Positions 13,240 to 29,254 of a DNA stretch of 41,568 nt are shown here, in pieces. How positions within the stretch are numbered: position 1 is the first letter of the stretch; each line of letters begins with the position of its first letter. A program made the position numbers and the translations under genes. This DNA is from Clostridia bacterium. Lineage in GTDB: Bacteria > Bacillota > Clostridia > Oscillospirales > Acutalibacteraceae. The stretch spans positions 1 through 41,568 of the forward strand of contig JAFWYP010000037.1 in the NCBI GenBank assembly GCA_017517665.1, in the 5' to 3' direction. A model generated the notes under the pieces. It did not search any database. It saw only the letters and a program-made list of their open reading frames with translations, and was not told where the DNA came from.

Positions 13240-14025
13240 TTAATCAACTTTTTTTCCGATTTTGGCGACAAATCTTTTGAACTTGCCTCTTTCAAGTGCA
13301 AGGTAAACACTTTTTATTGGTGGACAAATTGTGAAAAGCACGCCCGAAAGAGTGAAAAGGAAGCTGGGATTGACGCTCTTTTTACCCTTTTCGATACCCT
13401 TGACCATCTTCTTTGCAACCGTTTTCGGGCTCTGCACAGGGAACGGTCTTTCAAACTCAACCTCATTTGCGGTTGCGAAGAAGTTTGTGTCTGTTGCGAT
13501 GGGATAAAGGCAGGTGAGTTTCACATTCTTCGGCATTTCAAAACGGATTCCCTGCTGGAAACCCTCCATTGCAAATTTTGATGCGGAATATGTAGTAAAT
13601 CCGGGCATTGCCATTTTGCCGATTGCCGAAACGGTTATGCAGAAATGTCCCTTTCTGCCGTTGAGATGACGCACGAATTTCTGATATGAATATATGGGAG
13701 AATAAACATTGGTTTCAAACATTCTTGCCGTTCTGTCCCAATCGGTGTAATCCATCAGTTCATAGTAGGGATAACCTGCGTTGGCATAAAAAATATCAAT
13801 CTTGCCGAAAAGCTTCTTCGCCTTGTTGAATATCAGGTCAACATTTTCCTGCGATGAAACGTCACAGACAAACGGAGTAACGTTATCGGAAAATTTATCC
13901 ATATTGTTGCAGTTAATATCAACGGCAAGTATTTTATTGGATTCTTCAGCCGCAAGGATTTTGAGAACTTCAAGACCTATACCGCTGTCTGCACCCGTAA
14001 GAACGATTTTTTTATTTTTAATCAT
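13240..14025 (-). CDS. Short-chain dehydrogenase/reductase (classical SDR)
   Basis: 261 residues; the ATG has AAGGAGAG 6 bases before it. Rossmann motif TGADSGIG at residues 10-17, Asp36 (VDIN) after strand 2 suggesting NAD(H) preference, NAG at 82-84, Asn106, catalytic Ser133, Tyr146 and Lys150 (YSASK). All catalytic tetrad residues are present. The C-terminal hydrophobic stretch (FLFTLSGVLFTICPPIKSVYLAL) is unusual and could give membrane or lipid association. It is divergent from an enoate-reductase-like gene, so the pair may act on the same hydrophobic or hydroxylated substrate, for example an alcohol/ketone step next to a double-bond reduction. The substrate is unknown. Confidence 0.88.
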   Translation of the reverse strand: MIKNKKIVLTGADSGIGLEVLKILAAEESNKILAVDINCNNMDKFSDNVTPFVCDVSSQENVDLIFNKAKKLFGKIDIFYANAGYPYYELMDYTDWDRTARMFETNVYSPIYSYQKFVRHLNGRKGHFCITVSAIGKMAMPGFTTYSASKFAMEGFQQGIRFEMPKNVKLTCLYPIATDTNFFATANEVEFERPFPVQSPKTVAKKMVKGIEKGKKSVNPSFLFTLSGVLFTICPPIKSVYLALERGKFKRFVAKIGKKVD

Positions 14026-14143: not shown

Positions 14144-16210
14144 ATGAAATATCCGACTCTTTTTTCTCCCATAAAAATCGGAAGCATTGAAATAAAAAAC
14201 AGAATATGTATGGCACCCATGCTTATGGACTTCGGTCAGTTTGACGGACGCACAACAGAGCAACTTATGGATTACTATGAAGAAAGAGCCAAAGGCGGTA
14301 CGGGTCTTATCATAACCGAAATCACAAGAGTCAACGATGTCACCGGCGGTGCGGCTTTTGCACAGCTCGGTATGAGTCACGATTATCAGATTGAGGGTAT
14401 GACGGAGTTTGCAAAACGCATCCATTCCCACGGCTCAAAGCTTTTTGTTCAGCTTCATCATCCCGGCAGACAGAATATGGGTCTGCTTATCGGAACTCTT
14501 CCGCTGAGTATTGCGTGCGATAAAGCGATGCCGTTTTTCAAAGATATGCTCTATAAGGTTGTGCCGGCAGGTAAACTCCTTATGAAGCATCACATCGTTC
14601 CGAGAGTTGTTGCACCCTCAAAGTGCGAAAACAGTTATTTCTCCGACGGCAACAACAGAGCACTCACCAAAAAAGAAATCAAGAACCTTATAAATGACTT
14701 TATCGATGCTGCAGTCAGAGTCAAAAAATCGGGTTGTGACGGCGTACAGCTTCATGCATCCCACGGATACCTGCTTCAGCAGTTTTTATCGCCCAACACC
14801 AACAAACGTACCGATGAATACGGCGGCAGTCTCGAAAACCGAATGAGATTTATTCTTGAAATCATTGCAGGTATCAGAGAAAAATGCGGCGCTGATTTCC
14901 CGATTATTGTCCGTCTCACAGTTGACGAATGCTACTCGATGATTGGCAAAAAAGATAAGGGATACGACCTCAACGAAGGCGTTGAAATAGCAAAAAGGCT
15001 TGAAAAAGCAGGTGTTGACGCTATTGACGTTTCCTCTGCGTCTTATGACACCTTTAATTATTGGCTTGAGCCGACATCGTTCGAATGCGGCTGGAGAAAA
15101 TATATGGCTCAGGCGGTAAAGAATGCCGTCAGCATTCCGGTTATTGCGGCAAATCTTATCAGAAGTCCCGAGCAGGCTGAAAGCCAACTCAATGAGGGTG
15201 TTCAGGATATTATTTCGCTGGGCAGACCACATATTGCCGACCCCTATTGGGCAAAGAAAGCGGAAAGCGGACACGCAGAGGATATCAAGCGTTGTATCTG
15301 CTGCCTTTACTGCATCGAGAGTATGCAGAATAATGCCTACATAGGCGACCACGGCTATTGCGCAGTCAATCCCTTTGTGGGAAGCGAAAAATATGAGCTG
15401 AAAAATGACGGAAACGGCAGGAAGATTCTTGTTGTCGGTTCTGGTCCCGCAGGACTCACCGCCGCAGAGCTTCTTGCAAAAAGAGGTTTTGCCGTTACTG
15501 TTGCAGAAAAGAGCGATAAGTTCGGCGGTCAGGTTGATCTCGCAGTAAAACCGCCTCATAAAGATAAGCTTTTGTGGTGTATAGAAGATTTGCATACAAG
15601 CTGTCAGAAACTCGGCGTTGAATTTCTGATGAATACGGAAGTTACCAAAGTATTTGTTGAAAACGCAAAGCCTTTCGCCGTTATCTGTGCAACGGGTGCA
15701 TATGCTTCAAGACCGAAATTTATTGACGGCTATGACCGTGAAAATGTTTATACAACAACCGATATTCTCGATGGAAGCGTTGTGCTTGAAAACAAAAAAG
15801 TTGCCGTTATCGGCAGTGGTATGACGGGACTTGAAACCGCAGAATTGCTCACCGAAACCGGCAACAAAGTGACCATTGTTGAAATGGCTGACGAAATCGC
15901 GCCCGGCATATGGCATCAGCACATAAACGATATAATGCCCCGACTTAAAAATAAGAAAACCGAATTTCTCACCTCAAAAAAACTCACCGCAATCAAGGGA
16001 AAATCAATTGTTATTGAGGATAAAAAGGGAAATAAATCGGAAGTTGCAACAGACTATGTCGTTCTTTCTCTCGGTGCAAAGAGTGAGAATGCTCTTTATA
16101 ACGAGCTTAATAATGCAGGAATAAATACATACCTCATCGGTGACGCCGAAAAAGTCGGCAGAATCGCCGATGCAACGAGAAGCGCATTTGAATGCGTGAA
16201 GAAGATTTAA
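14144..16210 (+). CDS. Old-Yellow-Enzyme-type NADH:flavin oxidoreductase with Fe-S and FAD/NAD domains
   Basis: 688 residues, the size of 2,4-dienoyl-CoA reductase, enoate reductase and the BaiCD/BaiH bile-acid enzymes. Residues 1-370 form the FMN TIM barrel (FSPIKIGSIEIKNRI, QLHHPGRQ, GVQLHASHGYLLQQFLSP, RTDEYGGSLENR). Cysteines 384, 386, 387, 390 and 406 (CICCLYC...YCAVNPFVG) are the 4Fe-4S region; the spacing differs from the usual CxxCxxxC, so ligand assignment is unclear. A dinucleotide fold at 427 (VVGSGPAGLTAAELL) and a second at 553 (VIGSGMTGLETAELL) bind FAD and NAD(P)H. It probably reduces a C=C bond of an unsaturated acid, CoA ester or sterol-like substrate in the cytoplasm. Confidence 0.9.
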   Translation: MKYPTLFSPIKIGSIEIKNRICMAPMLMDFGQFDGRTTEQLMDYYEERAKGGTGLIITEITRVNDVTGGAAFAQLGMSHDYQIEGMTEFAKRIHSHGSKLFVQLHHPGRQNMGLLIGTLPLSIACDKAMPFFKDMLYKVVPAGKLLMKHHIVPRVVAPSKCENSYFSDGNNRALTKKEIKNLINDFIDAAVRVKKSGCDGVQLHASHGYLLQQFLSPNTNKRTDEYGGSLENRMRFILEIIAGIREKCGADFPIIVRLTVDECYSMIGKKDKGYDLNEGVEIAKRLEKAGVDAIDVSSASYDTFNYWLEPTSFECGWRKYMAQAVKNAVSIPVIAANLIRSPEQAESQLNEGVQDIISLGRPHIADPYWAKKAESGHAEDIKRCICCLYCIESMQNNAYIGDHGYCAVNPFVGSEKYELKNDGNGRKILVVGSGPAGLTAAELLAKRGFAVTVAEKSDKFGGQVDLAVKPPHKDKLLWCIEDLHTSCQKLGVEFLMNTEVTKVFVENAKPFAVICATGAYASRPKFIDGYDRENVYTTTDILDGSVVLENKKVAVIGSGMTGLETAELLTETGNKVTIVEMADEIAPGIWHQHINDIMPRLKNKKTEFLTSKKLTAIKGKSIVIEDKKGNKSEVATDYVVLSLGAKSENALYNELNNAGINTYLIGDAEKVGRIADATRSAFECVKKI

Positions 16211-16225
16211 TTACATATACAAGAA

Positions 16226-16258
16226 AAAGACTGCACGGGGTCATCCCATGCAGTCTTT
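16226..16258 (+). terminator. Terminator of the enoate-reductase-like gene
   Basis: AAAGACTGCA (16226-16235) pairs perfectly with TGCAGTCTTT (16249-16258), followed by ATTGTTT. Confidence 0.8.
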
Positions 16259-16267
16259 ATTGTTTCT

Positions 16268-16492
16268 GTATCAAACGCCTGAAACCGTTGATATGTAATG
16301 GGTTTACTCCAACCGTTTCTCTAAATTCAACATAGCGGAAATGTAGTTTTCTGACTGTGTCAATGTTGTCTGTAACGGGTCGCCTTCACGGATACGCATG
16401 GTGCGGCGGATTTCTTTAGGGATGACGACCCTTCCGAGGTCATCAATTCTTCTGACAATACCTGTGGCTTTCATTTTATATCTTTCTCCTTT
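16268..16492 (-). repeat. AbrB-like module, left copy (direct repeat with 27648-27872)
   Basis: The whole gene at 16304-16474, its ribosome site and about 35 bases after the stop (containing CGCCTGAAACCGTTGATATG as read on the plus strand) recur almost unchanged and in the same orientation near 27.65-27.87 kb. The two copies bracket the helicase/LRR island. Confidence 0.8.
16304..16474 (-). CDS. Small AbrB/SpoVT-type DNA-binding protein (left copy)
   Basis: 56 residues from the ATG at 16474, preceded by AGGAG in AAAAAGGAGAAAGATAT; a longer start at 16501 adds only MFEKGERYK. Residues 1-33 are a swapped-hairpin AbrB domain (ATGIVRRIDDLGRVVIPKEI, RREGDPL-type end). The tail is not the usual SpoVT/AbrB C-terminus but a short helical segment, DPLQTTLTQSENYISAMLNLEKRLE. 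Known family: dimeric or tetrameric transcription factors. 54 of 56 residues equal those of the copy at 27685. Because both gene and flanks are repeated, this looks like a multi-copy module rather than a dedicated regulator of its neighbours. Confidence 0.8.
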   Translation of the reverse strand: MKATGIVRRIDDLGRVVIPKEIRRTMRIREGDPLQTTLTQSENYISAMLNLEKRLE

Positions 16493-16672
16493 TTCAAACA
16501 AATTTTGATGTTATTATTTGTGAAGCAAGGAGATTTATACTTTACCAGTGTGTCAAATCATTTTTTAATATTTTTATTGCTCAAACATTCCAAAACTTTA
16601 TTTCTTAAACACCCCGTAATATGGTTTTACGAAAATAAAAGTCTGTGTGATCTTTATTAATACCCAAATGGT

Positions 16673-16870
16673 TTATTTTATGGTTTTGCCGTGAACCAAA
16701 GTTATTCCATCTTCAAAATCCCGATCTTCATCTATTGATTGAACACCAAGCACAGAGGTAACCTCCTCGTCTTTATCATCTATATGGATAAGCCCGCTCA
16801 CCGCAAACGCCTCGTGTAATATTATATCACGAGTTGTGTTCAAGTTCTCGAAAAGACTATCACGAAATAG
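16673..16870 (-). pseudogene. C-terminal remnant of an unrecognised gene
   Basis: About 66 codons open on the minus strand, ending TAA at 16675-16673, with a composition typical of a real protein (RDIILHEAFAVSGLIHIDD, then SVLGVQSIDEDRDFEDGIT). There is no ATG and no ribosome site; a stop lies directly upstream at 16871-16873. It is probably the 3' end of a gene cut when the neighbouring island formed. I do not recognise the family. Confidence 0.4.
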
Positions 16871-16901
16871 CTATTGTTTTTAAGAAATTTACATACATCC
16901 A

Positions 16902-16931
16902 TTGTTTTTTTGACGAAAGAAGTGCTATAAT
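16902..16931 (+). promoter_or_regulatory. Promoter of the XRE/exonuclease-like/helicase operon
   Basis: TTGTTT (16902-16907), 18 bases, perfect TATAAT (16926-16931), about 57 bases before the XRE start. Confidence 0.6.
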
Positions 16932-16987
16932 ATTATTCAAAACCCTGTTAATTTGCTTTTATGAGACTTTTATGTGAGGTGCAGAAT

Positions 16988-17227
16988 ATGAAAGTGAGCT
17001 ATAAAAAATTATGGATTATGCTTGCAGAACGTGAAATGAGCAAGGCTGAACTTCGCAAACTTGCCGGTATAGCTCCTGCTACATTTACTAAACTCAGAAG
17101 AAATCAAGAAGTAGCACTCTCGGTTCTTCTTAAAATTGCCGATGTTATGCACTGCGATGCTGGTGACATGATGACATTTGTAAAGGATAACAATCCGTCA
17201 GCAAATGAGGTAGTCGAAGCGGAATAA
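16988..17227 (+). CDS. XRE-family HTH_26-type regulator
   Basis: 79 residues from the ATG at 16988, chosen for GAGGTG 6 bases upstream; a longer form from 16961 has none. The protein is one helix-turn-helix domain (SYKKLWIMLAEREMSKAELR, APATFTKLRR, VLLKIADVMHCDAGDMM), the PF13443 pattern. Small proteins of this type often stand first in operons of restriction-modification and other defence genes and repress them. Here it is followed after 37 bases by the Zn-ribbon/DnaQ-like gene, and then the helicase. Its likely job is autoregulation of the island operon. Function is inferred from family and position. Confidence 0.85.
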   Translation: MKVSYKKLWIMLAEREMSKAELRKLAGIAPATFTKLRRNQEVALSVLLKIADVMHCDAGDMMTFVKDNNPSANEVVEAE

Positions 17228-17264
17228 TCCTTACAACTATAATTGCTCGAAGCGGAGACAAAAT

Positions 17265-18542
17265 ATGAAATGTTTGAATTGCGGCGTATCAGCCGACCAT
17301 TATCTTTGTGGTTGCTGTCAAACGCCAGATATATTGGATAAAATTTTTAATGAGATACGCTTTTATAAACCGGAGACTTGTGAAAATCCGTATCTGTCAG
17401 AAACTGCTTCCGGTCTTACTGAAAAGTATGCCGAGCGAGATATTATCCCGGCAATTCTCGATCTGTTTGATTTCGAGATTTCCGAGTTTTACTATTGCCA
17501 GTATTACAGGATGCGCAGAGATGCTCGGTTTGAGGATGCTGCCATTGCGTATTTGAATACGCACGAGCTGGATAATATCCGCACACAGAATGTGCTATAC
17601 GATTTGATTGAAAGCTATATTCCCAACGATTTTATCAAGCCTAAAAAGTGGTGTGAGCTTATTGCCGACTCCGAGAGTCTTTGCTGTGAACTGTATGCTG
17701 TTGCTGCAAAATATTTCGCTATGATTGGCGAGTATGAATTAGCGGATGCTGTCGCTGATAAAGGTCTTCTTCTCTGTAAATCCGAAGAGAATAGAAAATT
17801 TCTGTTCTATTCTCCGGAAAACATGATCTCAAGATTGGAAAAGCAGAAAGAGGATACAAACAGATACCGCACGAAAAAGCCTTACTGGCCTGCTACCGAG
17901 GAGCGTAGACGAGCGGTTGCTATGTTCTATGACGAGAAAGGAATCAAGTATCCACGAATTGAGAACAGACCGGAGAAGATCAAAGAAAGCGAATTTGCTC
18001 CAATCAAAGAATGCTTTGACGATGATATTGTTGACTACTGTGCTTTTTGGTGTGCTGATACTTTCAGTTTGTCGGCTGCGAAAGGTATTTACCAGATTGC
18101 AGCGGTAAAGGTTCGTGATGAGGTAGTTATAGATGAATTCCAGGAACTGGTTCGTCCTTGGGACGGTGTTGCAGACAGAAAGGATGCAGCGAAGAAAGCC
18201 GGTGTTGAGCTTTCGGTAATCGAGAGTGCAGAAGATGTGGATTTGGTAATTCCGAAGTTCTTTGCGTTTGTCGGTGATGACGTACTGATTTCGACAGGAG
18301 CACTTGGTAATCAAGCAAAGCTTATTTCTCGTGCTGCCAGATATGCCGGTATGCGTGAAATTAAGAATGAGTTTTATGATCTGCTTGACTTTGCGGCAGA
18401 CACAGATTCGGAGTTTGATCTTGCAAATAACACCCGAGAATATTTGCTTGCGCATTTTTCTGTTGCGGAAGGAAAAAGTGCACTTGAAAAAGCACAGATC
18501 AACAAGCAACTTTATGAAGCTTTGAAAAAATATGGTGAGTAA
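17265..18542 (+). CDS. Zn-ribbon/helical protein with a degenerate DnaQ-like (DEDDh) exonuclease domain
   Basis: 425 residues. Residues 3-18 hold Cys3/Cys6 and Cys15/Cys18, a Zn-ribbon. Residues 40-200 are helical with TPR-like spacing (YAVAAKYFAMIGEYELADAV). Residues 260-410 follow the order of an RNase T/DnaQ exonuclease: CADTFSLS, YQIAAVKVRDEVVIDEFQEL, LVRPWDG, GVELSVIESAEDVDLVIP, FVGDDVLISTGALGNQAKLI. Asp265 of the first motif remains, but the expected Glu is Phe267 (DTF) and the HNAxFD stretch reads TGALGNQ, so the usual metal-binding acids appear lost. It may bind DNA or RNA ends, or serve as an assembly factor for the helicase directly downstream. Codon use differs from the flanking sugar genes. 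Confidence 0.7.
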   Translation: MKCLNCGVSADHYLCGCCQTPDILDKIFNEIRFYKPETCENPYLSETASGLTEKYAERDIIPAILDLFDFEISEFYYCQYYRMRRDARFEDAAIAYLNTHELDNIRTQNVLYDLIESYIPNDFIKPKKWCELIADSESLCCELYAVAAKYFAMIGEYELADAVADKGLLLCKSEENRKFLFYSPENMISRLEKQKEDTNRYRTKKPYWPATEERRRAVAMFYDEKGIKYPRIENRPEKIKESEFAPIKECFDDDIVDYCAFWCADTFSLSAAKGIYQIAAVKVRDEVVIDEFQELVRPWDGVADRKDAAKKAGVELSVIESAEDVDLVIPKFFAFVGDDVLISTGALGNQAKLISRAARYAGMREIKNEFYDLLDFAADTDSEFDLANNTREYLLAHFSVAEGKSALEKAQINKQLYEALKKYGE

Positions 18543-18543
18543 T

Positions 18544-20673
18544 ATGGCTGACAAAGTGAGCTTAACGCCGGAGCAGCAGGAAGCGATTTCTGAAATAGAC
18601 CGCAACCTACAGATTATCGCTTGTGCCGGTTCTGGTAAGACCGAAGTTATTACTCGCAGATTAGCAAACATTCTGCAGAGCAAATCAGATATTAAACCGG
18701 AAAATGTTGTGGCATTCACATTTACTGAAAAAGCCGCAGCGTCTATGAAAAAACGCATAGTAAAAGCATTGGATGCTAAAGTGGCTACCGACATAGATCG
18801 TATGTATGTTGGTACAATTCATGGTTTTTGCTATCACTTGCTTAACAAATATACTGAACAATTCCGAGAATATAAGGTTCTCGATTCCGTAAAAAGCCAT
18901 CTCTTTGTAGCAAGATACTGCAATGAATGTGGGATGAGCGATTTGAATTTGGAACCCTACCCTCGCAATGTAAACTTGTTTCTGCAGTGTGTCGACAAGA
19001 TGATTGACGACTATGACAACGCAGATATGTGGACACAAGAACAGCGAGATGTACTTAATAAATACATCGGTTGTCTTTATAGACACAGCTATATTGACTT
19101 TGCGTTGATGATCTTTGAGACCCTTCGCCAGATCGAATCCAATCCCGAAGTGAAGGATTACTTATCTCGCATTAAATACTTGGTTGTGGATGAGTACCAG
19201 GATGTAAACGATCTGCAGGAAAAACTCATTCTGCGCATCGCAGAAACCGGTGCAAATATCTGTGTTGTCGGCGATGACGATCAGACAATCTATCAGTTCC
19301 GAGGAAGCAACGCCGATAACATGATCTCCTTCTCAGAGAGATACGCTGACGTACATCAAGTGCGTTTGGAGAAGAATTTCCGTTGCGCACCAGGTATTGT
19401 GGATGTTGCGGATTGTGTTATCGGACACAATGATCGCCGCATCGCAAAGAAAATGGTGTCCGGAGCAACGGATTTACAAGCAACTATTGAGGCAAACAGA
19501 TACTCCGATAAAAAAGAACAGTTCGATAGTATTGCTGAGCAAATTATCGAACTGCACAAAGCGGGTATTCCATATAAAGAAATGGCGATTCTTGTCCGCA
19601 AGGGAAAAGCAATCGCACCGGCATCCTACGCTCTTGATCGAGCTGGGATACCATTTGAAACGGACAGCGCAGAACACTTCTTTGCCGGTAACTATTTTAA
19701 CCGTTTCGTGGTTACGCTACAGATTTTATCCGACATTGATAAAGCAAAGCTTTATGAGTGTTGGCAAGACATTATCGAAGGAACAGCTTTTAATGTGGGA
19801 TTTAAGTTTTTGAGAAGCTGTGCAAGAGGCGGCAATCTTCCTCTCAGTGAAATCATCCGAGGTTTTTGCGAAAAAACTGCATTTATAGATGATACTGCCG
19901 AAGATGCCGATGTTCGTCGAATAGACTTGGATGGTATTGCAAAAATACTGGACGACTACGACGAAATATACGGAGATTGGCAATTATCTGCACGAATTAC
20001 CGGCGTTCTTAAGTTCCTTGGCACACAGGCTGCTGATGAGTATAAATACCATAGTTTCAAGCCGAAAGACCCCAATGCTGATGCCGTTCAGATTATGACG
20101 GTTCATAAATCCAAGGGGTTAGAGTTCAACACGGTATTCCTTCCGGAACTCACAAAACGAGAGTTCCCTGTTTCCAATATGGGCGGCAAAAAGTATTATC
20201 ATGTGCTTGGAGGCGTGTTTGAGGAAAACAAAGATAAGTATCAAAGCGATCTGGAAGATGAGCGCAAGCTGTTCTATGTTGCGGTTACTCGAGCTAAACA
20301 AAATTTGTATATGACATACGAGTTGTCTGCTCAGCCCGTATCGTGCTTTGTAAAAGAATCTTCCGGTTCTCATCACTTGAAGCTCGACAGAAGTGATTTG
20401 ACCTACAATCCTAAAGCAGATGTCGAAGATTTTGCTCCAAGTTTCAAGAACTCTTATGAGCCAAAAACTCGTGAGCCGAATCCTGAATGGGAGGAGGAAC
20501 GTAGACAATGCCAGGAGTATTGGGAAACAGTTAAGTATGCTCGTAGTCAACTATATGACTACTATGGTACTGGTGCCCATTTTTGCCCTGCGATGTACAC
20601 GATGCTTGGCGAGATTAAGCGATGGACTCCGGATCAGATTCTGCAAGAAGCAAGCAGAAATGGGTTGATATGA
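18544..20673 (+). CDS. UvrD/Rep/PcrA-type SF1A DNA helicase
   Basis: 709 residues from the ATG at 18544, one base after the previous stop; GGTGAG lies in the end of the upstream gene, so translation is probably coupled. All SF1A motifs are present: Q motif LTPEQQEAI, Walker A ACAGSGKTE (26-34), FTFTEKAAASMK, GTIHGFC, Walker B VVDEYQD (Asp216-Asp220), VGDDDQTIYQFRGS, LEKNFR, TVHKSKGLEFNTVFLPEL and FYVAVTRAKQ. It is therefore a likely active ATP-dependent 3'-5' helicase. The C-terminus is unlike the housekeeping PcrA end and carries PEWEEERRQCQEYWE and an alpha-helical tail. Many defence systems use a UvrD-like helicase with a nuclease-like partner, which fits the operon. Confidence 0.92.
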   Translation: MADKVSLTPEQQEAISEIDRNLQIIACAGSGKTEVITRRLANILQSKSDIKPENVVAFTFTEKAAASMKKRIVKALDAKVATDIDRMYVGTIHGFCYHLLNKYTEQFREYKVLDSVKSHLFVARYCNECGMSDLNLEPYPRNVNLFLQCVDKMIDDYDNADMWTQEQRDVLNKYIGCLYRHSYIDFALMIFETLRQIESNPEVKDYLSRIKYLVVDEYQDVNDLQEKLILRIAETGANICVVGDDDQTIYQFRGSNADNMISFSERYADVHQVRLEKNFRCAPGIVDVADCVIGHNDRRIAKKMVSGATDLQATIEANRYSDKKEQFDSIAEQIIELHKAGIPYKEMAILVRKGKAIAPASYALDRAGIPFETDSAEHFFAGNYFNRFVVTLQILSDIDKAKLYECWQDIIEGTAFNVGFKFLRSCARGGNLPLSEIIRGFCEKTAFIDDTAEDADVRRIDLDGIAKILDDYDEIYGDWQLSARITGVLKFLGTQAADEYKYHSFKPKDPNADAVQIMTVHKSKGLEFNTVFLPELTKREFPVSNMGGKKYYHVLGGVFEENKDKYQSDLEDERKLFYVAVTRAKQNLYMTYELSAQPVSCFVKESSGSHHLKLDRSDLTYNPKADVEDFAPSFKNSYEPKTREPNPEWEEERRQCQEYWETVKYARSQLYDYYGTGAHFCPAMYTMLGEIKRWTPDQILQEASRNGLI

Positions 20674-20674
20674 T

Positions 20675-20962
20675 ATGAAAGCTAAAAAAGAGACGCTAAC
20701 GCTTATCAATGGCTGTATAGAGGCAGCTCTTGATGAGCTATATAATACTTGGCGAAAATCGTCAGGGTGTTATAGTAAAAACGTTCACACAACAACAAGC
20801 AGAAGAAGGCGATAGTGATTAACCGTTAACTACTACTGTGCACACTTTATTGGTCGCTATGGATGTAAAGAGTACTTTGCGCACAATAAGGAATTACTGT
20901 TTTATGAACGGCAAAAGGAAATCATTCAGCAGCTTCAAGAACTTGAGCTGGAAGATTTGTAA
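20675..20962 (+). pseudogene. Decayed small gene(s) between helicase and LRR gene
   Basis: An ATG at 20675, one base after the helicase stop, begins MKAKKETLTLINGCIEAALD and is interrupted by a TAG-TGA pair near 20813-20818. Coherent coding continues in the same frame to TAA at 20962 (YYCAHFIGRYGCKEYFAHNK, then KEIIQQLQELELEDL). Another frame gives LGENRQGVIVKTFTQQQAEE across 20750-20815. The pattern suggests one or two small genes broken by frameshift and stops. I do not recognise the family. Confidence 0.4.
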
Positions 20963-21049
20963 TTTGTGGTTTCAAAAATGAACTCGGGTGCTGAGTTGGT
21001 GTCTTAGCAAAACTTGTAAACTCTCATATATTCAGAAAGGATAATTGCT

Positions 21050-24000
21050 ATGTATAACAAATATTGTGAAGAAGATCTAAGAGAATTTAGGTATGAATAT
21101 GTCGAAGATGGCGTGAAGGTTGTTGCATATTCTGGCGTAAAGGATAACGTTAGAATACCGAGTTCCGTTGATGGTGCTCCGGTTGTTGAATTGGGTATAA
21201 ATAAAGATGGATATGTAGGTATAATGCCCTACAATGTTCTGATTCCTAATACCGTTAAGCGCGTTAATGTGCATGCAATTAGCTCTCCGCAGACTCATGG
21301 TTGGTTTACAGAGTTTTCATTGGAAGAAGGAAATCCCAATTTAGCAATCATAAATGGCATGTTAATTGAGGGTGGCAAAAGGGTTGTCTATTGCATGGAG
21401 CACAGTATCACCCAGGTGATTATTCCGGACGGCATTGAGAGCATTGGAGAATATGCCTTTAGGGACTGTTCTAAGCTGAGCGAAGTTGTTTTGCCAGATG
21501 GTATTAAACGCATTGAGGACTATGCATTTGCCGGATGCCAAATCAAGAATATCACTTTGCCTGATGGATTAGAAGAAATAGGTTATTCTGCTTTTTATAA
21601 CAAATTTGATAATTATAATAGCAGATTCACCCTTGATTTGACGATTCCAACCTCTGTGAAGAAAATATCGGTATGCTATACCGTTAATCTCCTGAACATA
21701 GAAAATAATGAACACCTCACAATGTGTGACGGTTTCTTGATGACCGCTGATAAGAAAACTATCCTCTGGTATTTAGGCGAGTCCGTCCCTGAATTGTTTA
21801 TTCCAGATTATGTTGAAAACATCGCACCATATGCCTGCTCGGTATGGGCACTTTCTGAAATAAAGAAACTGGTGTTAGGCACATCGTTAAAAACTATCTC
21901 TGCGCACGCTTTTAGAGCAAACAAAGTGAAAACATTAAGAATCCCTGAGAGCTTGGTGGAGATTGATGATACTGCCTTTGACTTCTCAAATGTTACTTCC
22001 GTCATTGTTGATAAGAAAAATCCTGTAATTTATACTGATAAAACTGCTCTTTACAAAACTGTCGATTCAGGACATCTGGTATTGATGTACTGCTTCCGTG
22101 ATAAGATTGAGGAGTATGTTGTAGCAGAAAACACCGTATGTATTCTTGATGGTGCGTTTGTTAATTGTCGCCAATTGAAGGAATTAAGCCTTCCCGAATC
22201 TCTGGTAGAATTTTCCGAACGATGCCTAGGCAGCTCTGTAAAAAAAGTGAAGATTCCTGCGGCTGTCACTAATATGGATTTTCACCAAGGAGACAGTGAA
22301 ATTAAATATGAAATCAGCGATGAAAATACTGTATATGCGTGGATAGATCATGTTCTGTACAAAAAAGCAGACAATGGTCTTGTTGCTGTACGATTTGACG
22401 GAGCCGTGCAAGAGGTTGTTTTGGCATCGGAAACCATTGCGGTTGCTTCGTATGCATTCAATAAGGATGTGAAAAAAGTCACTTTTTCTGGCAACGTAAA
22501 AAGAGTCGAACACCATGCCTTCTACTCTTGCTCCATTGAAGAAGTGGTCTTTAACGAAGGCTTAGAGTTTATAGATTACGTTGCTTTCGCACGTAATCGT
22601 ATCAATGAGGTGGTGCTTCCCAGCACAATCAAATACGTTTGCACTTCTGCGTTTTATTATTGCCCTATTCAAAAATATGCTATTGCAGAAGGAGCCGAAG
22701 CGTATGCTGTACAAGACGATGCTCTTTACAGCAAAGATTTGACCACTCTCTACGATGTTCCTGAACAGTGCGCAATTACCGAATTTTGTGTTGCTTCAAA
22801 CACTACGGACATTTGCAGAGCGTTCCGGGGATGCAAGAAAATCAAGGCAATTAAACTACCTGCCAGCGTAAAGAACATTTGGAAATTTGCGATTATCGGC
22901 TGCAAGGCATTGAAGGACGTATACTTTGAAACATCTCCTGATTACATCAGCGAGGATAGTATTGATTTTGATTTCCCGATTTCTTTACACGCTGAACTTG
23001 ATTCTTCTGTGGCAAACATGATTGAAAGTTTGCGTTCAAAAACTGATGGCAGAACAAGCCTTGAGTTGGCAGTAAAAGGAATGGAAGATGTCCAAAGTCT
23101 TTGTAAAGAATTTACGTTAATGCCTAATAAAACAGGACTAACCATTCTTAAAAACAAATCCAAGGAAAAGAACATTGTTGTGCCTGCACAGATTGGTAAT
23201 TATAAAGTTACCGCTATTGGTGCATACGCATTTTCTGAGTCAAATTGGGGTAGCGAAGTGTTAGAGTCGGTAGAACTTCCCGACACCATTGAAAAAATAG
23301 GCAACGGTATTTTCGCTGGATGTAGAAAATTAACTGCGGTAACCCTTCCTAAAGGAATTACGGAAATTGTTGAAGCCATGTTCCGTTATTGTGCGGAGCT
23401 TGAAGAAGTGAGTATTCCGGACGGAGTAACAAGGATCGAGCAATGTGCGTTCTTTGGGTGTGAAAAGGTAAATAGAATTACGTTCCCGCAAAGTGTTGAG
23501 TATATTAGTGAATGGCTTTTCTCCGACAAAGCTGAAAACAGTGACGATGACAGACATAAGGATTTGTATTTGAATGCAAAAACTTTGTACGTTGTTGAAA
23601 AAGGCAGTTATGCAGAGAAGTTCTTGAGAAACTATACTCCAGATAAATATGATTGCGGACGGTTAGCTGTCGTATATGCAAATCAATTGAATGCCCCTGT
23701 CTCTGAAGAAGAAACCGAGGCACTTAAGTATTTGGATTACTCTATTGAGGAAGATGGAACGGTCTCTGTTTCTTGTCGATCCTATTGGCATGAACCTCAT
23801 CCCGTCGTGAAAATTCCGGAAACAATTCAAGGAATGCCTGTAACTAAGTTGACCGGAATGAGTTCAATCCACGGAAGTATTGAAGTTATTCACATTCCTG
23901 CAAGTATTCTTTCGATCGAAGGACTTTACTACCTCTCATTCTATTCCGGTGGACAAAATATGCGAAAAATTATTGTTGCAGAGGACAACCCGAATTATTG

Positions 24001-27000
24001 GTCTGATGGAAAAGCATTGTACACAAAAGACAAGACCACTTTGATTCATATGTTCGATTATCAAGCCGAGGAATATGTTGTTCATGAAAATACAAAAACA
24101 ATCGGCAAAGAAGCTTTCGGAAATTTCTCTAACCTGAAAAAGCTTGTTCTTCCTGATGGATTAGAGGAAATTCAGAGTGGTGCCTTTTATGATTGCAGTA
24201 ATCTCGCAGAAATTATAGGTGTGGAAAAGGTTGGTTCTATTGCGGAAGGTGCTCTCTCTCCCACCGCATATTACCGCAATATGCCCATTGTATTCAGCGG
24301 AACTGTTCTTCAAAAATACAATTCCACTACAGAAAAGAGCTATACAATCCCTAACGGCACGACCGAAATTGCGAGCAACGCTTTCTATCTATATAACGAA
24401 GACGATGCTCTTGAGGAGATTGTTATTCCCGAAACGGTAAAAATTATAGGTAAGAGTGCGTTCCAAGGAAGAAAGCATCTTGTTAAAATCAATATACCTA
24501 AAGGTGTGGAAACTATTGAAAGTAGCACCTTTAAGGAATGTGAAGCATTGACCAGTTTACATATTCCTGCGAGTGTAAGCAATATCGCTGTTGATGCCTT
24601 CCCTGTGTACGAAAAGCCGTGGAGAGGTGCACCAATTGTTCCGGCTTTTGCGGCTTTCGAAGTTGACGAAAATAATACTACATATAAGTCTGTGAATGGA
24701 ATCCTGTATTCGAAGGATGAAAGCACGCTGATCAAAGTTCCTGCAAGTTTCTCGGAGAAAGAGTTCGTCGCTGCGGATACATTGAAAATCATTGGTGAGC
24801 ACGCATTTGAAGGCAATTCTTCGATTAAGAAAGTTGTATTAACGCCAAATGTTACGTGTATATCTACGAGTGCATTTGCTCGTTGTACATCGCTTGAAGA
24901 AATCAATTTGGAAAATGTATTGACTATCGAGAAAAATGCATTTTACGAATGCGAAAAGCTAAGAAGTGTTGTTCTGAACGCAGGGGAAATAGGTTCTTCC
25001 GCTTTCTCATCCTGTAAGAAGTTGTCTTCTGTAACTTTGCAGAGCACAAAAATTATAGGGTCACATGCATTTAATGGGTGTTCTGAACTCAAAAAAATTG
25101 ATTTGCCTGACGGATTGGTCGAAATTGGCAAATCTGCTTTTGCGAAGTGTAGCCTCAATGGCGTGATTGTGCCAAAAACGGTACTCAAAACCGGCAACGA
25201 AAGTTTTTCTGGATGCAAGACAATCACTATTTATGACACAATTGACCCCGATGCAAAGCCGGCTGACACCTATATGGATGATTGTAACGGTTCTCCAAAC
25301 TCCGTTGTTGGATTCATTGGCATCGGTCCCGCATTGGCTATGTGGCAATGTGCGGCTAATCACTATTGGATTGATCACGAGATTGTTGTCCGTTCTGCAG
25401 AAACCAATGAAATCAAGTATAAGGTATGGATGGGTTCTGATCCAAAACAGAGAAAATACTATTGTACATTGACTTCCTCCTGGGGTAAAAACGCTACATT
25501 TAACTTCGGCGCATTAGATGCTGCATTTTCCGGAATCAAAGGCGTTGAGCACAAGATTAAGGTCGCATTAAACAGATTACGTTACCCTGAAAATCTTTCG
25601 GATGGGCAAAGAGATTCTTATATTGCATATCTTGTGAGATCTGCCAAAGACCTTATTACCACTTGCATTGATTCGGACGATATGGAAACCCTTCTTTATT
25701 GCGAACCGTTCGGTGTAATTAAGAAGAACAACATTGATGATTTGCTTGAGTACGCTGCCAAAGCAAAGGCAATTCAGTTCTCTGCTTACTTGATGGAGTA
25801 TAAAGCTACCCACTTTGGTGGTTCCTCAGTTAAAAAGCCGACGCTCTCCTTCAAGGAAGTCGCTCCTTGGGCAACAAGCAAATCAGCTCCAAGTAAGGTT
25901 GGTAGATATAAAGGAAATGACGTAGATGTTGTGTTCCCGACAGAGGTAAAGGGAGTAACTATTACTGGCGTTGCAGGTACTACCTCAAAGGTTCCGGAAA
26001 ACTATAGGGCTATTGTATCGGTATCCTTGCCTGAAGGCTATACAACGATTGGTGATTATGCGTTCTATGGGTGCGACAACCTTGAACGGATTAACCTCCC
26101 CAGTACAATTCAGTCTATCGGTAAGGATGCATTTAATGGATGCGTGAAGCTGAAAGAAATTCTTATGCCAGATGCGGTAACAGAAATTGGCGAAAATGCA
26201 TTCAGAAATTGTTCTGCGTTGGAAAAAGTCAAGTTTTCTAAGAATTTGACAGCTATTCCTGGATACGCATTCGCAAACTGCAGTTCTCTTAGAGAAATTG
26301 ACCTGCCAAAAAATGTAAGCCGCATATACAAGGGCTGTTTTGAAAGCTATGGCATTAGAAAAGTTACCGTACATTGCGCTAAAATGTTGTCAATGGGACA
26401 ATGTTTTGGCTCCGCGCCTGAAGTTCACGCTTATAAAGATGCGATGAAAGGTGTGTATGGAATATCTCAACGGTCTATTCACAATCTTAAACTCGTCGAT
26501 CTTTTGTCAGAAACATTTGTTACCGTAACTATTTCTTCTACAAACGAGCAAGATGCAATATTTAATTTCTATGCCGATGCCATCGACACTTCTATTCAAA
26601 AGACCGGTGCTACTGTTTTGGATGAAAAGCTGGCAGTATCTGTCGAAGGTGATTCTATCGTCGACCTGTTAACAACTGCATACGGATCAGGTTTTGTTTC
26701 GGCTGAAAACAATGCTGATGAAATTCGTCGTTTGAGCGAACTCGGTAACACAGGAACGGTGATTGCCGTTGTAATCAAGGAAGAAAAGAAGAATGATGAT
26801 GGTGCCGTAACAACAGTATATGAATACTCTACCAAAAAGCATAAGGGAACGTTAAAGGAAAAGGAAGTCGTAGGCTCTGGGTCGGAGGATGGCAATGAGG
26901 ATATCCATATATATATGGATTACTATGACTACTATCACGAAACTCACGATGACAACAGAACCGAGGAAGAACCTAATGCTGAAAGCCAAGATGATGGATT

Positions 27001-27316
27001 CGTTAATATTGAAGAACGAGATTTAAAAGGCGATAGCGGTATTTGGGACTTCTCTGCGGTTGACTCTATCGAATTTGAAGGAAAAATCTTCGTCTTAACT
27101 GGATTCGGGGCGCAAGAAGAAGAAAAAATCACACAAGAAATTCAAAAACGAGGCGGAACTGTAAAAAGCTCTACTGTTGTTAAAACCGATTATCTGATTG
27201 TTATGGAAGACTATGACCATGCAACAACTAAATATCAGAAGGCTAAGGAATTGCAGGCGCAAGGCAAGAATATTGCAATTATAAGTTCTAAGATGTTCTA
27301 CTCAGTTGTGGAATAA
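21050..27316 (+). CDS. Giant LRR_5 (BspA-like) protein with C-terminal BRCT domain, predicted cytoplasmic
   Basis: 2088 residues; AAAGGA precedes the ATG. There is no signal peptide (MYNKYCEEDLREFRYEY), unlike secreted BspA proteins. More than twenty LRR_5 repeats of the form AFxxCxxLxxVxLPxxVxxIg occur in blocks at about 100-640, 690-890, 930-1415 and 1640-1790. Residues about 1417-1594 are a non-LRR insert, with tryptophan-rich (MWQCAANHYWIDHE) and helical (LRYPENLSDGQRDSYIAYLV) parts. After an acidic linker (about 1944-1992, DYYDYYHETHDDNRTEEEP), residues 2007-2088 match a BRCT domain (GKIFVLTGFG, RGGTVKSSTVVKTDYLIV), as in the end of NAD-dependent DNA ligase. BRCT domains bind DNA ends or proteins. 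Together with the helicase this suggests a DNA-linked recognition or scaffold protein; that role is inference. Confidence 0.85.
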   Translation: MYNKYCEEDLREFRYEYVEDGVKVVAYSGVKDNVRIPSSVDGAPVVELGINKDGYVGIMPYNVLIPNTVKRVNVHAISSPQTHGWFTEFSLEEGNPNLAIINGMLIEGGKRVVYCMEHSITQVIIPDGIESIGEYAFRDCSKLSEVVLPDGIKRIEDYAFAGCQIKNITLPDGLEEIGYSAFYNKFDNYNSRFTLDLTIPTSVKKISVCYTVNLLNIENNEHLTMCDGFLMTADKKTILWYLGESVPELFIPDYVENIAPYACSVWALSEIKKLVLGTSLKTISAHAFRANKVKTLRIPESLVEIDDTAFDFSNVTSVIVDKKNPVIYTDKTALYKTVDSGHLVLMYCFRDKIEEYVVAENTVCILDGAFVNCRQLKELSLPESLVEFSERCLGSSVKKVKIPAAVTNMDFHQGDSEIKYEISDENTVYAWIDHVLYKKADNGLVAVRFDGAVQEVVLASETIAVASYAFNKDVKKVTFSGNVKRVEHHAFYSCSIEEVVFNEGLEFIDYVAFARNRINEVVLPSTIKYVCTSAFYYCPIQKYAIAEGAEAYAVQDDALYSKDLTTLYDVPEQCAITEFCVASNTTDICRAFRGCKKIKAIKLPASVKNIWKFAIIGCKALKDVYFETSPDYISEDSIDFDFPISLHAELDSSVANMIESLRSKTDGRTSLELAVKGMEDVQSLCKEFTLMPNKTGLTILKNKSKEKNIVVPAQIGNYKVTAIGAYAFSESNWGSEVLESVELPDTIEKIGNGIFAGCRKLTAVTLPKGITEIVEAMFRYCAELEEVSIPDGVTRIEQCAFFGCEKVNRITFPQSVEYISEWLFSDKAENSDDDRHKDLYLNAKTLYVVEKGSYAEKFLRNYTPDKYDCGRLAVVYANQLNAPVSEEETEALKYLDYSIEEDGTVSVSCRSYWHEPHPVVKIPETIQGMPVTKLTGMSSIHGSIEVIHIPASILSIEGLYYLSFYSGGQNMRKIIVAEDNPNYWSDGKALYTKDKTTLIHMFDYQAEEYVVHENTKTIGKEAFGNFSNLKKLVLPDGLEEIQSGAFYDCSNLAEIIGVEKVGSIAEGALSPTAYYRNMPIVFSGTVLQKYNSTTEKSYTIPNGTTEIASNAFYLYNEDDALEEIVIPETVKIIGKSAFQGRKHLVKINIPKGVETIESSTFKECEALTSLHIPASVSNIAVDAFPVYEKPWRGAPIVPAFAAFEVDENNTTYKSVNGILYSKDESTLIKVPASFSEKEFVAADTLKIIGEHAFEGNSSIKKVVLTPNVTCISTSAFARCTSLEEINLENVLTIEKNAFYECEKLRSVVLNAGEIGSSAFSSCKKLSSVTLQSTKIIGSHAFNGCSELKKIDLPDGLVEIGKSAFAKCSLNGVIVPKTVLKTGNESFSGCKTITIYDTIDPDAKPADTYMDDCNGSPNSVVGFIGIGPALAMWQCAANHYWIDHEIVVRSAETNEIKYKVWMGSDPKQRKYYCTLTSSWGKNATFNFGALDAAFSGIKGVEHKIKVALNRLRYPENLSDGQRDSYIAYLVRSAKDLITTCIDSDDMETLLYCEPFGVIKKNNIDDLLEYAAKAKAIQFSAYLMEYKATHFGGSSVKKPTLSFKEVAPWATSKSAPSKVGRYKGNDVDVVFPTEVKGVTITGVAGTTSKVPENYRAIVSVSLPEGYTTIGDYAFYGCDNLERINLPSTIQSIGKDAFNGCVKLKEILMPDAVTEIGENAFRNCSALEKVKFSKNLTAIPGYAFANCSSLREIDLPKNVSRIYKGCFESYGIRKVTVHCAKMLSMGQCFGSAPEVHAYKDAMKGVYGISQRSIHNLKLVDLLSETFVTVTISSTNEQDAIFNFYADAIDTSIQKTGATVLDEKLAVSVEGDSIVDLLTTAYGSGFVSAENNADEIRRLSELGNTGTVIAVVIKEEKKNDDGAVTTVYEYSTKKHKGTLKEKEVVGSGSEDGNEDIHIYMDYYDYYHETHDDNRTEEEPNAESQDDGFVNIEERDLKGDSGIWDFSAVDSIEFEGKIFVLTGFGAQEEEKITQEIQKRGGTVKSSTVVKTDYLIVMEDYDHATTKYQKAKELQAQGKNIAIISSKMFYSVVE

Positions 27317-27318
27317 TC

Positions 27319-27516
27319 ATGATCTCGCATGAACTTATAGAAGAGGCTTTAAGGTATGCTTCTCAAGGAATAGTGGTAACCACGACTCTGCTGAACGTAT
27401 TGCGTTCGGCGGAAGACTTATGGACAAAAGCGGTATCTATATATCGCCCGTCTACAACGGACATACTATTAAAGCACACATCATCCGTTAAAGAAGAATG
27501 GAGAAGTCATATATAG
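27319..27516 (+). CDS. Small ORF after the LRR-BRCT gene, probably frameshifted
   Basis: 65 codons beginning 2 bases after the LRR stop (MISHELIEEALRYASQG). From about 27370 a different frame reads more like protein (NSGNHDSAERIAFGGRLMDK and ISPVYNGHTIKAHIIR, stop near 27466). A single-base change could therefore have split a protein of about 50-60 residues. No family is recognised. Confidence 0.35.
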   Translation: MISHELIEEALRYASQGIVVTTTLLNVLRSAEDLWTKAVSIYRPSTTDILLKHTSSVKEEWRSHI

Positions 27517-27563
27517 TAGAATTTCATATCCAGGCCGTTCTTTTACTAACAAATATATTTTTC

Positions 27564-27600
27564 AAAATAGCTGTCTCAATGAGGCGGCTATTTTACTTTA
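27564..27600 (+). terminator. Terminator at the end of the LRR-BRCT unit
   Basis: A 14-bp stem: AAAATAGC (27564-27571) pairs with GCTATTTT (27587-27594), and the inner TGTCTC/GAGGCG bases also pair with two G-U wobbles, leaving an AAT loop. ACTTTA follows. Confidence 0.7.
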
Positions 27601-27647
27601 GAAATTCAGTCTTATATTTTCCTGATTGTTGCCAATCTTTTGGTTTT

Positions 27648-27872
27648 TATATCAAACGCCTGAAACCGTTGATATGTAAGGGTTTCAGTCAAGCCGTTTC
27701 TCCAAATCGAGCATAGCGGAAATGTAGTTTTCTGACTGTGTCAATGTTGTCTGTAACGGGTCGCCTTCGCGGATACGCATGGTTCGGCGGATTTCTTTAG
27801 GGATGACGACCCTTCCGAGGTCGTCGATTCTTCTGACAATACCTGTGGCTTTCATTTTATATCTTTCTCCTT
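27648..27872 (-). repeat. AbrB-like module, right copy (direct repeat with 16268-16492)
   Basis: Same gene, ribosome site and downstream block as the left copy, same orientation, differing at only a small number of positions. It marks the right edge of the island. Confidence 0.8.
27685..27855 (-). CDS. Small AbrB/SpoVT-type DNA-binding protein (right copy)
   Basis: 56 residues from the ATG at 27855 with AAGGAG upstream. The AbrB hairpin domain (ATGIVRRIDDLGRVVIPKEI) is joined to the same DPLQTTLTQ tail as the copy at 16304; only two residues differ (MLDLEKRLD against MLNLEKRLE). Both reading frames are intact, so both copies are probably expressed. Its promoter was not located with confidence. 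It is divergent from the TetR gene at 28111. Confidence 0.78.
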   Translation of the reverse strand: MKATGIVRRIDDLGRVVIPKEIRRTMRIREGDPLQTTLTQSENYISAMLDLEKRLD

Positions 27873-28030
27873 ATATTTTGGTTGCCCTGTTATTGTTTGT
27901 CAGAATTTGCGGTTTATGCGCAATAATTCTATCGGATATTGATTTTCTGCACGTTCGGATTACTTCACTCGCCTTAACAGAACGGTTGAATCTTTCTTTG
28001 GAAAAATTTTTACAAATTACTTTCAAAGTG

Positions 28031-28074
28031 TTGACAAATTCATAACGGATATGTATTATAGTACATGAACTATA
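28031..28074 (+). promoter_or_regulatory. Promoter and operator of the TetR gene
   Basis: TTGACA (28031-28036), 17 bases, TATTAT (28054-28059). An inverted repeat TATAGT-N6-ACTATA (28057-28074) overlaps the -10 and the likely transcription start, the normal place for TetR-family self-repression. Confidence 0.65.
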
Positions 28075-28110
28075 TAGTACACATACAATTTATGTGCGGG
28101 GGTTATTTTT

Positions 28111-28800
28111 ATCAGACGAAGAAAGGTTAACACCACAAAGCTGGAGATTATTCAGACGGCATCTGAAATGTTTATTGAAAACGGATATTCGTCAACATCT
28201 CTGCGCTCGGTTGCGGATAAGCTGGATATCAGTCCCGGACATCTTGTTTTTTATTTCCCCACGAAGGAGCATTTGCTTGCGGTTCTTATAGACAAGCTTT
28301 GTTCGTTTCAATGGAAACTGATAAAAAAAGAGGCGGAGGACGGAATAAGCACTCTTCTTGCGGTTTGCCTTGAGCTTATGACAATGGCGGCGGCAGCGGA
28401 GGAGGACGAAATTGCAAAGGACTTTTTGGTTTCTGCTTATCAGAGCAGGATGTGTCTTGAAATGATTCAGAAAAATGATATTGAAAGGGCAAAAGAGGTT
28501 TTTGCGGAGTTTTGTTCCGATTGGTCCGATGAGCAGTTCAAGCAGGCGGAAAGCCTTATTTCCGGCATAGAGTATGCAACGCTGAACACAACACGCTACT
28601 CTGCAAAGCTTGAAACACGAATTACGAGTGCGCTTGAAGCAATACTGACAATTTACAATGTGCCCGAGGAAATTCGTAAGATTAAAATTAAAAAGGTTCA
28701 GTCAATGAATTACCGTGCAATAGGCAAACGAATTTTCAAAGAATTCAAGGAATATATTGAACAGGAAAATGAGCAGGCGTTTGATGAGTTGCTGAAATGA
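28111..28800 (+). CDS. TetR/AcrR-family regulator with a non-standard start codon
   Basis: About 229 residues. The N-terminal HTH is complete only if translation begins upstream of the first ATG (28168): the frame reads RRRKVNTTKLEIIQTASEMF, then IENGYSSTSLRSVADKLDIS and GHLVFYFPTKEHLL, a textbook TetR DNA-binding domain. The codon before RRRKV is ATC at 28111, with GGGGG 8 bases upstream; ATT at 28105 is another option. No ATG, GTG or TTG is available in frame. The C-terminal ligand domain is diverse and tells nothing about the inducer. It probably represses its own promoter, and perhaps the four-helix-bundle gene and the giant secreted protein downstream. Confidence 0.8.
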   Translation: MRRRKVNTTKLEIIQTASEMFIENGYSSTSLRSVADKLDISPGHLVFYFPTKEHLLAVLIDKLCSFQWKLIKKEAEDGISTLLAVCLELMTMAAAAEEDEIAKDFLVSAYQSRMCLEMIQKNDIERAKEVFAEFCSDWSDEQFKQAESLISGIEYATLNTTRYSAKLETRITSALEAILTIYNVPEEIRKIKIKKVQSMNYRAIGKRIFKEFKEYIEQENEQAFDELLK

Positions 28801-29254
28801 GTGCAGAATGCAGAACTATGAATGCAGAACGGAGAATTTGATGGGTAGCATTATTGAAATTAAAAGCTTTGATTTTGCAGTCAGAACGGTAAATCTTTAT
28901 AAGCATCTGACTTCGGAGAAAAAAGAGTTTGTTTTATCAAAACAGCTTTTACGTTGCGGAACAAGTATCGGTGCAAATATTGCCGAAGCTGAACGAGGGC
29001 AAAGCAAGGCGGACTTCAATGCAAAACTGAACATTGCTCTTAAAGAGGCAAATGAAACATATTACTGGTTAAGGTTGTTACACGAAACAGATTATCTGAC
29101 AGATAAAGAATTTAAAAGCATTGAGAAAGATATTGATGAAATAATCGCAATACTCGTTTCAATATGCAAGAAAACAAGCTTAAAATAAACGCAGAATGAT
29201 GAATGCAGAACGAATATAACCAACTCTGTGTTCTGCACTCTGAACTCTGCACTC
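28799..29254. repeat. Inverted-repeat flanks of the four-helix-bundle gene
   Basis: GAGTGCAGAATGCAGAAC (28799-28816) and GTTCTGCACTC (29230-29240) are near reverse complements. TGCAGAAC (29204-29211) pairs exactly with GTTCTGCA (29230-29237). GAATGCAGAAC also appears as a direct repeat on both sides (ending 28830 and 29211). This resembles the ends of bacterial rRNA intervening sequences that carry S23 genes. Confidence 0.55.
28841..29188 (+). CDS. Four-helix-bundle protein (S23/rRNA intervening-sequence family)
   Basis: 115 residues from the ATG at 28841, with GGAG 6 bases upstream. The sequence fits the S23 family (TIGR02436 type): FDFAVRTVNLYKHL, LSKQLLRCGTSIGANIAEAE, KLNIALKEANETYYWLRLL and a last helix KSIEKDIDEIIAILVSICKK. 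The GxSIxANIAEA core is the hallmark. The role of these proteins is unknown; some are carried in 23S rRNA insertions and many are free genes near mobile or variable regions. It sits between inverted GCAGAAT-rich repeats, 40 bases after the TetR gene. Confidence 0.85.
   Translation: MGSIIEIKSFDFAVRTVNLYKHLTSEKKEFVLSKQLLRCGTSIGANIAEAERGQSKADFNAKLNIALKEANETYYWLRLLHETDYLTDKEFKSIEKDIDEIIAILVSICKKTSLK

Follow-up and report, generated by a model that had tools for sequence, protein, structure and literature searches.

The contig JAFWYP010000037.1 of a Clostridia bacterium of the Acutalibacteraceae (41,568 nucleotides, hereafter the window) encodes an adjacent pair of proteins, a DnaQ-fold protein that has lost all five catalytic residues of its DEDDh-exonuclease-like active site (hereafter EXO) and a UvrD-like helicase, preceded by a small helix-turn-helix (HTH) regulator. 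The window is the entire contig (C40) of a 2.77-Mb genome (G000) that is 88.7% complete. From the sequences, distribution and surroundings of these genes, we propose with roughly even confidence that HTH, EXO and UvrD make up a small DNA-surveillance module, acquired horizontally, in which EXO serves as a noncatalytic partner of the helicase. More broadly, the pair is probably a DNA-guarding module, whether in anti-phage defence or in repair. Helicase-nuclease pairs are a major theme of bacterial immunity and repair, and a conserved pair whose nuclease fold lacks catalytic residues, found beside a branch that keeps them, provides a natural experiment on the noncutting roles of the fold. Within the open-licence literature we found no description of an EXO-UvrD pair, although no query combined all of its components.

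EXO has lost its active site and kept its fold

EXO (17265..18542, + strand) is 425 aa long and consists of an N-terminal zinc ribbon (cysteines C3, C6, C15 and C18), a helical middle and a C-terminal DnaQ/DEDDh fold. It has no Pfam match at E<=0.1 and matches DEDD-exonuclease models weakly (best 2.5e-9), while its C-terminal part was modelled as a DnaQ fold in a predicted structure. The model thus shares its fold with DEDDh exonucleases but not their D-E-D-D-h residues: the catalytic D, E, D, H and D are replaced by W262, A264, Q350, K404 and K409. An initial annotation made from the letters alone had described a nuclease-fold protein without the usual acids, and this description was borne out.

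Relatives of the pair came from a genome-contig scan, which yielded three loci (L040, L041 and L042), and from other genomes, and they fall into two branches. In branch A, EXO keeps D, E, D, H and D in all five rows (L039, L074, L075, and L076 and L077, which are both short and solo). In branch B, the same positions read W, A/S, Q, K/E/A and K in all four rows (the window, L040, L041 and L073), and a fifth member by sequence, L042, has the first two catalytic positions replaced in its 5′ EXO piece. In a tree of 25 exonuclease domains, which includes two very long rows (the partial L086, and L090), branches A and B were joined with moderate support (80/72), with B on a long branch. Within branch B the dead domain is better conserved than the N-terminal part in 6/6 pairs, and is therefore maintained rather than decaying; dS was saturated in most of the pairs compared. 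At L042 (4354-5603) EXO is split by a frameshift beside an intact UvrD gene; an error in this metagenome-assembled genome and genuine decay are indistinguishable there.

The helicase partner shows no nuclease domain

The UvrD/PcrA-like helicase of superfamily 1A (SF1A) is encoded at 18532..20673 (+ strand) and is 713 aa long, or 709 if translation starts at ATG 18544. With the latter start a one-base gap separates it from EXO, as the initial annotation had it; with ATG 18532 the two genes overlap by 11 bases. Pfam identified UvrD-helicase (1.6e-55) and UvrD_C (5.2e-36), and all seven SF1A motif blocks, under their customary labels, are present in the motif columns of each of the five branch-B helicases (694 to 716 residues), in keeping with the earlier call of a complete SF1A helicase. 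No PD-(D/E)XK nuclease domain was detected in the window protein by Pfam at E<=0.1, which sets it apart from the AddA/RecB helicase-nucleases. The branch-A UvrD of L039 carries such a domain at its C terminus (5.7e-24), and the UvrD of L075 aligns with it end to end. The window genome has two further UvrD-family frames, of 794 and 1175 residues, which by size are PcrA- and AddA-like.

Of eight viral-contig loci found with UvrD, six were read. In a 21-row UvrD tree, from which one long paralogue (L105) was left out, branch B was joined by the prophage protein L107 (100/97), the nearest relative of the window helicase outside branch B, and then by L108-L112 (99/94). These relatives differ from the window helicase in that a PD-(D/E)XK domain is present in all five scanned of the six, and there was no EXO match in the sequence read around their genes. 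As a separate observation, in the region 7235-15874 of L107 the helicase gene adjoins one for a Sacsin/NOV-domain protein and follows two serine-recombinase-like genes identified by eye. The L108 helicase lies beside Vsr (by Pfam) and those of L109-L112 beside C5 cytosine methyltransferase-like genes (by eye), which are possible restriction-modification partners.

The pair is rare and recurs in mobile surroundings

Among the matches listed, whole-query EXO rows occurred in at least 6 of 394 genomes of the order, our own included; the other EXO rows from order genomes among those matches covered the exonuclease part only, many of them in PolC-sized frames. No full-length homologue was found in 36 genomes of the same genus, where two weak matches fell in frames of 1467 and 1480 residues and covered their exonuclease parts. 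The family is represented in 2/280 genomes of the bacterial family and 2/391 of the class (own included in each), the second in the class being L086, a solo protein whose active site is intact, and in 1/20 genomes of the family of G286, namely G286 itself. We counted each set of duplicates once: L072 (G286) is the L040 contig with identical neighbours, and G889, G803 and L041 share coordinates.

The order is EXO-UvrD in 5/5 branch-B loci and UvrD-EXO-WYL at L039 and L075. At L040 the pair is near genes for a NYN protein, a DruE-like helicase (1.7e-171) and a protein with an alphaCTD domain, and an actin-like (ParM-type) gene; LRR (leucine-rich repeat), DUF4132, SbcD and SbcC genes lie at a greater distance on the same contig. 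L041 has a YpsA/SLOG-like gene (below cut-off), an HTH gene, EXO-UvrD, a gene for a 199-residue protein, VWA (DUF2201), MoxR and LRR in that order, and adjoins prophage head, tail and methyltransferase genes. At L042 an LRR gene comes first, and after it an integrase gene and the RT-Protease_XI of a retron (1.2e-159). L073 has an integrase and a WYL regulator upstream, and SbcD, SbcC, a SPASM protein and LRR downstream.

Together, these data show EXO-UvrD to be a rare, patchily spread but recurrent and co-inherited adjacent pair that is probably mobile. The mobile and defence-like neighbourhoods of the branch-B loci point towards a defence role, but this evidence is only suggestive because it comes from five loci without a background rate. 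The adjacency elsewhere that the initial annotation had set as a check held for EXO and UvrD and not for the LRR-BRCT gene as such.

The LRR-BRCT gene probably belongs to a separate cassette

Downstream of the pair lies a gene for a 2088-aa LRR_5 protein with a C-terminal BRCT domain (21050..27316, + strand). Pfam placed LRR_5 (3.6e-183) in 11 stretches and BRCT at residues 2009-2069 (25.0 bits, where the cut-off is 21.3). Averaged over 19 residues, the Kyte-Doolittle score peaks at 1.45, which fits the earlier view of a cytoplasmic protein. The initial annotation had joined this protein to the other three as the possible sensor or scaffold of one unit, and that part of its account was not supported. 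Of 295 genomes of the order, just one besides our own matched the C-terminal 299 residues, weakly and in BRCT only, and the 376-base gap between the UvrD and LRR genes holds a feature that the annotation had not described, the C-terminal relic of a MoxR AAA+ ATPase gene (20825..20926, + strand). The relic is identical to a MoxR on contig C42 of the same genome at 29/34 residues (65.1 bits; the best of 500 shuffles reached 26.6 bits), and to the MoxR proteins of L041 and genome G043 at 23/34 and 24/34. On these two results we rejected a four-gene unit with a conserved LRR-BRCT protein.

MoxR-VWA-LRR gene sets were found elsewhere. On C42 (L126, L127), SbcD and SbcC are followed by LRR, VWA (DUF2201), LRR, MoxR, HEPN (Swt1), alphaCTD and a 162-residue protein; the part comprising VWA, LRR, MoxR, HEPN, alphaCTD and the 162-residue protein recurs at G043; SbcCD was not seen there. 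LRR, DUF4132, SbcD, SbcC and alphaCTD genes are also present at G286. The window LRR protein shares with the LRR proteins of MoxR-VWA-LRR sets a short helical motif that follows the repeats (at residue 1579 in the window protein). A scan of 216 proteins gave 6 matches to this motif, counted within those that bear at least three LRR signatures. Because of the MoxR relic and this shared motif, we read the LRR-BRCT gene as what is probably a leftover LRR component from a separate MoxR-VWA-LRR cassette. In the window itself there was no VWA match at E<=0.01, and MoxR appeared only as the short match.

A further outcome of the analysis is a MoxR-VWA-LRR(-HEPN-alphaCTD) gene set in Clostridia; we found no description of it in the open-licence literature, again with no query that combined all components. 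MoxR-vWA ternary conflict systems, described in excerpts of PMC7159879 as a MoxR ATPase and a VWA protein with a third component that varies, have the same component plan as the cassettes of C42, G043 and L041. The sets seen here differ in their LRR, BRCT and DUF4132 proteins, and those excerpts make no mention of BRCT, UvrD, DUF2201 or LRR as a whole word. The window keeps only the MoxR relic and lacks the intact MoxR and VWA genes of a ternary system.

A candidate mechanism and its alternatives

In the mechanism that we favour, UvrD would be an active 3′-5′ SF1A motor, and the zinc ribbon and helical middle of EXO may bind the helicase, forming a complex, or another protein. The dead DEDDh domain may retain a cleft that binds 3′ ends or single-stranded DNA (ssDNA) without cutting, so that EXO could load, restrain or steer UvrD wherever infecting phages or plasmids give rise to DNA ends, gaps or ssDNA. 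Unwinding would then disrupt phage or plasmid replication or repair, or make the DNA available to nucleases of the host, for example SbcCD or AddAB. Expression would be held low by the HTH protein, and LRR-BRCT would be the remainder of a MoxR-VWA-LRR cassette that has lost its VWA gene and most of MoxR here.

Several observations weigh against a surveillance module of this kind. No gene in the window surroundings was recognised as a defence gene, and known defence genes lie near only 2/5 branch-B loci (L040 and L042), a count without a background rate. The HTH gene was found at only 2/5 of these loci, and the SbcCD neighbours of L073 and L122 suit repair as well as defence. Nothing beyond generic exonuclease domains emerged for EXO from the phage, plasmid and viral collections: 50,697 phage records held no match, viral contigs yielded none with the EXO alignment as query and three loci with a branch-A query, where the match was confined to the exonuclease domain, and five records of a plasmid collection matched in that domain only. 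Lastly, branch-A UvrD lies on the other side of the 21-row tree from branch B, with paralogues and on a very short branch, whereas a 16-row tree without the prophage rows grouped A with B (98/99), subject to a warning about long branches. The helicases of the two branches need not be sisters, and an exchange of partners is therefore possible.

The SbcCD genes also bear on a reading in which EXO-UvrD is an accessory DNA-repair pair resembling MrfAB, with the dead exonuclease bringing the helicase to sites of damage or stalling on DNA, and the cutting left to SbcCD or other nucleases. At L073 the SbcD gene starts 13 bases past the UvrD stop and scores above its cut-off (SbcC was matched below its cut-offs), and the excerpts of PMC11194089 present MrfB as a DEDDh exonuclease that cooperates with a helicase. 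Yet SbcCD directly adjoins the pair in only 1/5 branch-B loci, the helicase is of SF1 and not of the SF2 YprA type, and the patchy distribution and the mobile or defence-like neighbours of the relatives fit poorly with repair, which leaves this explanation somewhat unlikely. Mobility itself could be taken further, with EXO-UvrD as a replication or anti-host-nuclease factor belonging to prophages or integrative elements, given the integrases near L073 and L042, the prophage genes beside L041, the actin-like gene beside L040 and the nuclease-bearing UvrD relatives in viral contigs. The absence of EXO from the phage records and the viral-contig scan, and the DruE and retron neighbours, which are defence-type cargo, make this very improbable.

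A single four-gene system, with LRR-BRCT detecting phage products or DNA ends and signalling to EXO-UvrD, would account for the position of the LRR_5 genes: in 4/5 branch-B loci (the window, L041, L042 and L073) one lies downstream of UvrD, on its strand and no more than ~5 kb away, where ~0.017 per 5 kb would be expected from the 19 LRR frames of our genome. BRCT is an adaptor domain in DNA damage, and an LRR-BRCT protein lies near the G043 pair too. However, LRR genes cluster. The window genome has 67 LRR_5 matches, and 19 frames, own included, match the window LRR protein; in the other genomes LRR matches rather than frames were counted, at 15 to 92 per genome. The LRR proteins encoded downstream of the branch-B pairs vary in size and domain content, and outside the repeats they have no conserved part in common with the window protein, except for the short helical motif in some; at L040 the nearest LRR frame is ~10 kb beyond UvrD on the other strand, and in the window the MoxR relic intervenes. 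We regard such a system as distinctly unlikely. A bolder version of the surveillance module, also unlikely though less so, is a nuclease-free immune motor, for which this lineage would have given up both nucleases of a helicase-nuclease defence pair, the exonuclease site being erased and PD-(D/E)XK absent; its dead DEDDh domain would read DNA ends, and it would sense invading DNA in concert with a remodelling machine of the MoxR-VWA-LRR-BRCT kind, part of which would come from the second locus on C42.

Comparison with known systems

The initial annotation had matched the locus to no named defence system, and PADLOC agreed, with nothing among the matches listed beyond generic helicase matches and two weak PDC-S48 domain matches. 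The latter involved the exonuclease part of EXO (0.004) and the BRCT part of the LRR protein (2.2e-4), and we rejected PDC-S48, reading them as generic domains. The broader suggestion of a defence-like unit held in part: the recurrence, patchiness and surroundings of EXO-UvrD, and an HTH gene that is also upstream at L041, are in its favour, while LRR-BRCT drops out.

Gabija (GajAB) is the closest UvrD-containing defence pair, as it has a UvrD-family helicase in an operon with a DNA-acting partner, and PADLOC matched the window UvrD to GajB (8.4e-70). This is a generic likeness, because the NCBIfam PcrA model scores 2.4e-77 (below its cut-off) on the same protein. GajA, the gene partner of GajB in Gabija, is an ATPase-TOPRIM nuclease, in contrast to the dead DnaQ fold found here; membership was rejected given that EXO has no Pfam match at E<=0.1, only the PDC-S48 match in PADLOC, and a C-terminal part modelled as DnaQ.

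The closest repair analogue is MrfAB of Bacillus subtilis, likewise a gene pair of a helicase and a DEDDh-fold partner. According to excerpts of PMC11194089 and PMC12458937, MrfA belongs to the YprA family of helicases, and MrfB is catalytically active as an exonuclease. The window pair instead has an SF1A UvrD helicase, not an SF2 YprA, and a partner whose five catalytic positions are replaced and which is predicted to be catalytically dead, and it was set apart from MrfAB on these grounds.

For the logic of the proposed mechanism, the closest described system is Hachiman (HamAB), an analogy that carries no claim of homology. HamB is an SF2 helicase and not UvrD-like, and HamA differs from EXO in being an active effector nuclease. 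Neither was among the best 25 of 58 PADLOC rows for the window UvrD, which is SF1A by Pfam. In the excerpts of PMC12278908, the Hachiman helicase recognises 3′ ssDNA ends and acts as the sensor.

The regulator, its promoter and the flanks

The reading frames of all four genes are open throughout, and Pfam confirmed HTH_26, UvrD, LRR_5 and BRCT where the initial annotation had placed them. The HTH_26 (Cro/C1-type) regulator (16961..17227, + strand; Pfam 7.6e-18) is 88 aa long, or 79 if it starts at ATG 16988, which is where its L041 homologue begins. That homologue is 44% identical, directly upstream of EXO, and overlaps the EXO start by 4 bases. An extended -10 promoter element (TG-C-TATAAT; TGCTATAAT) was found by eye at 16923..16931 (+ strand), 29 bases 5′ of ATG 16961, which agrees with the single promoter of the initial annotation. 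The consensus scan lent it no support: in 15500-29000 it gave 34 sites against a shuffle mean of 32.9, which is no excess, and listed no + strand site ahead of the HTH gene. A search of the window for structured RNA gave no Rfam match that reached the gathering score.

Upstream of the locus, a flavin oxidoreductase gene (14144-16210) is present in nine same-genus genomes (E<=1e-100). We read three of these same-genus contigs, of 16 kb or more, and a fourth, short contig (L115-L118). A short-chain-dehydrogenase-like gene (13240-14025 in the window) adjoins the oxidoreductase in 4/4 of them, and the sequence after it differs in each contig and has no match to the window (E<=1e-5). No clean empty site was found among the four. 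Because the flank is kept but the following sequence is unlike the window, we take the region after the oxidoreductase to be a variable site. Elsewhere in the window, the N- and C-terminal parts of a glycosyl hydrolase 38 lie in two consecutive frames (9371-10612 and 10713-12578), so that the gene appears split, and 29281-37593 encodes a 2770-residue protein with YDG, MBG, Big and fn3 repeats, with a 23S rRNA intervening-sequence protein gene just upstream.
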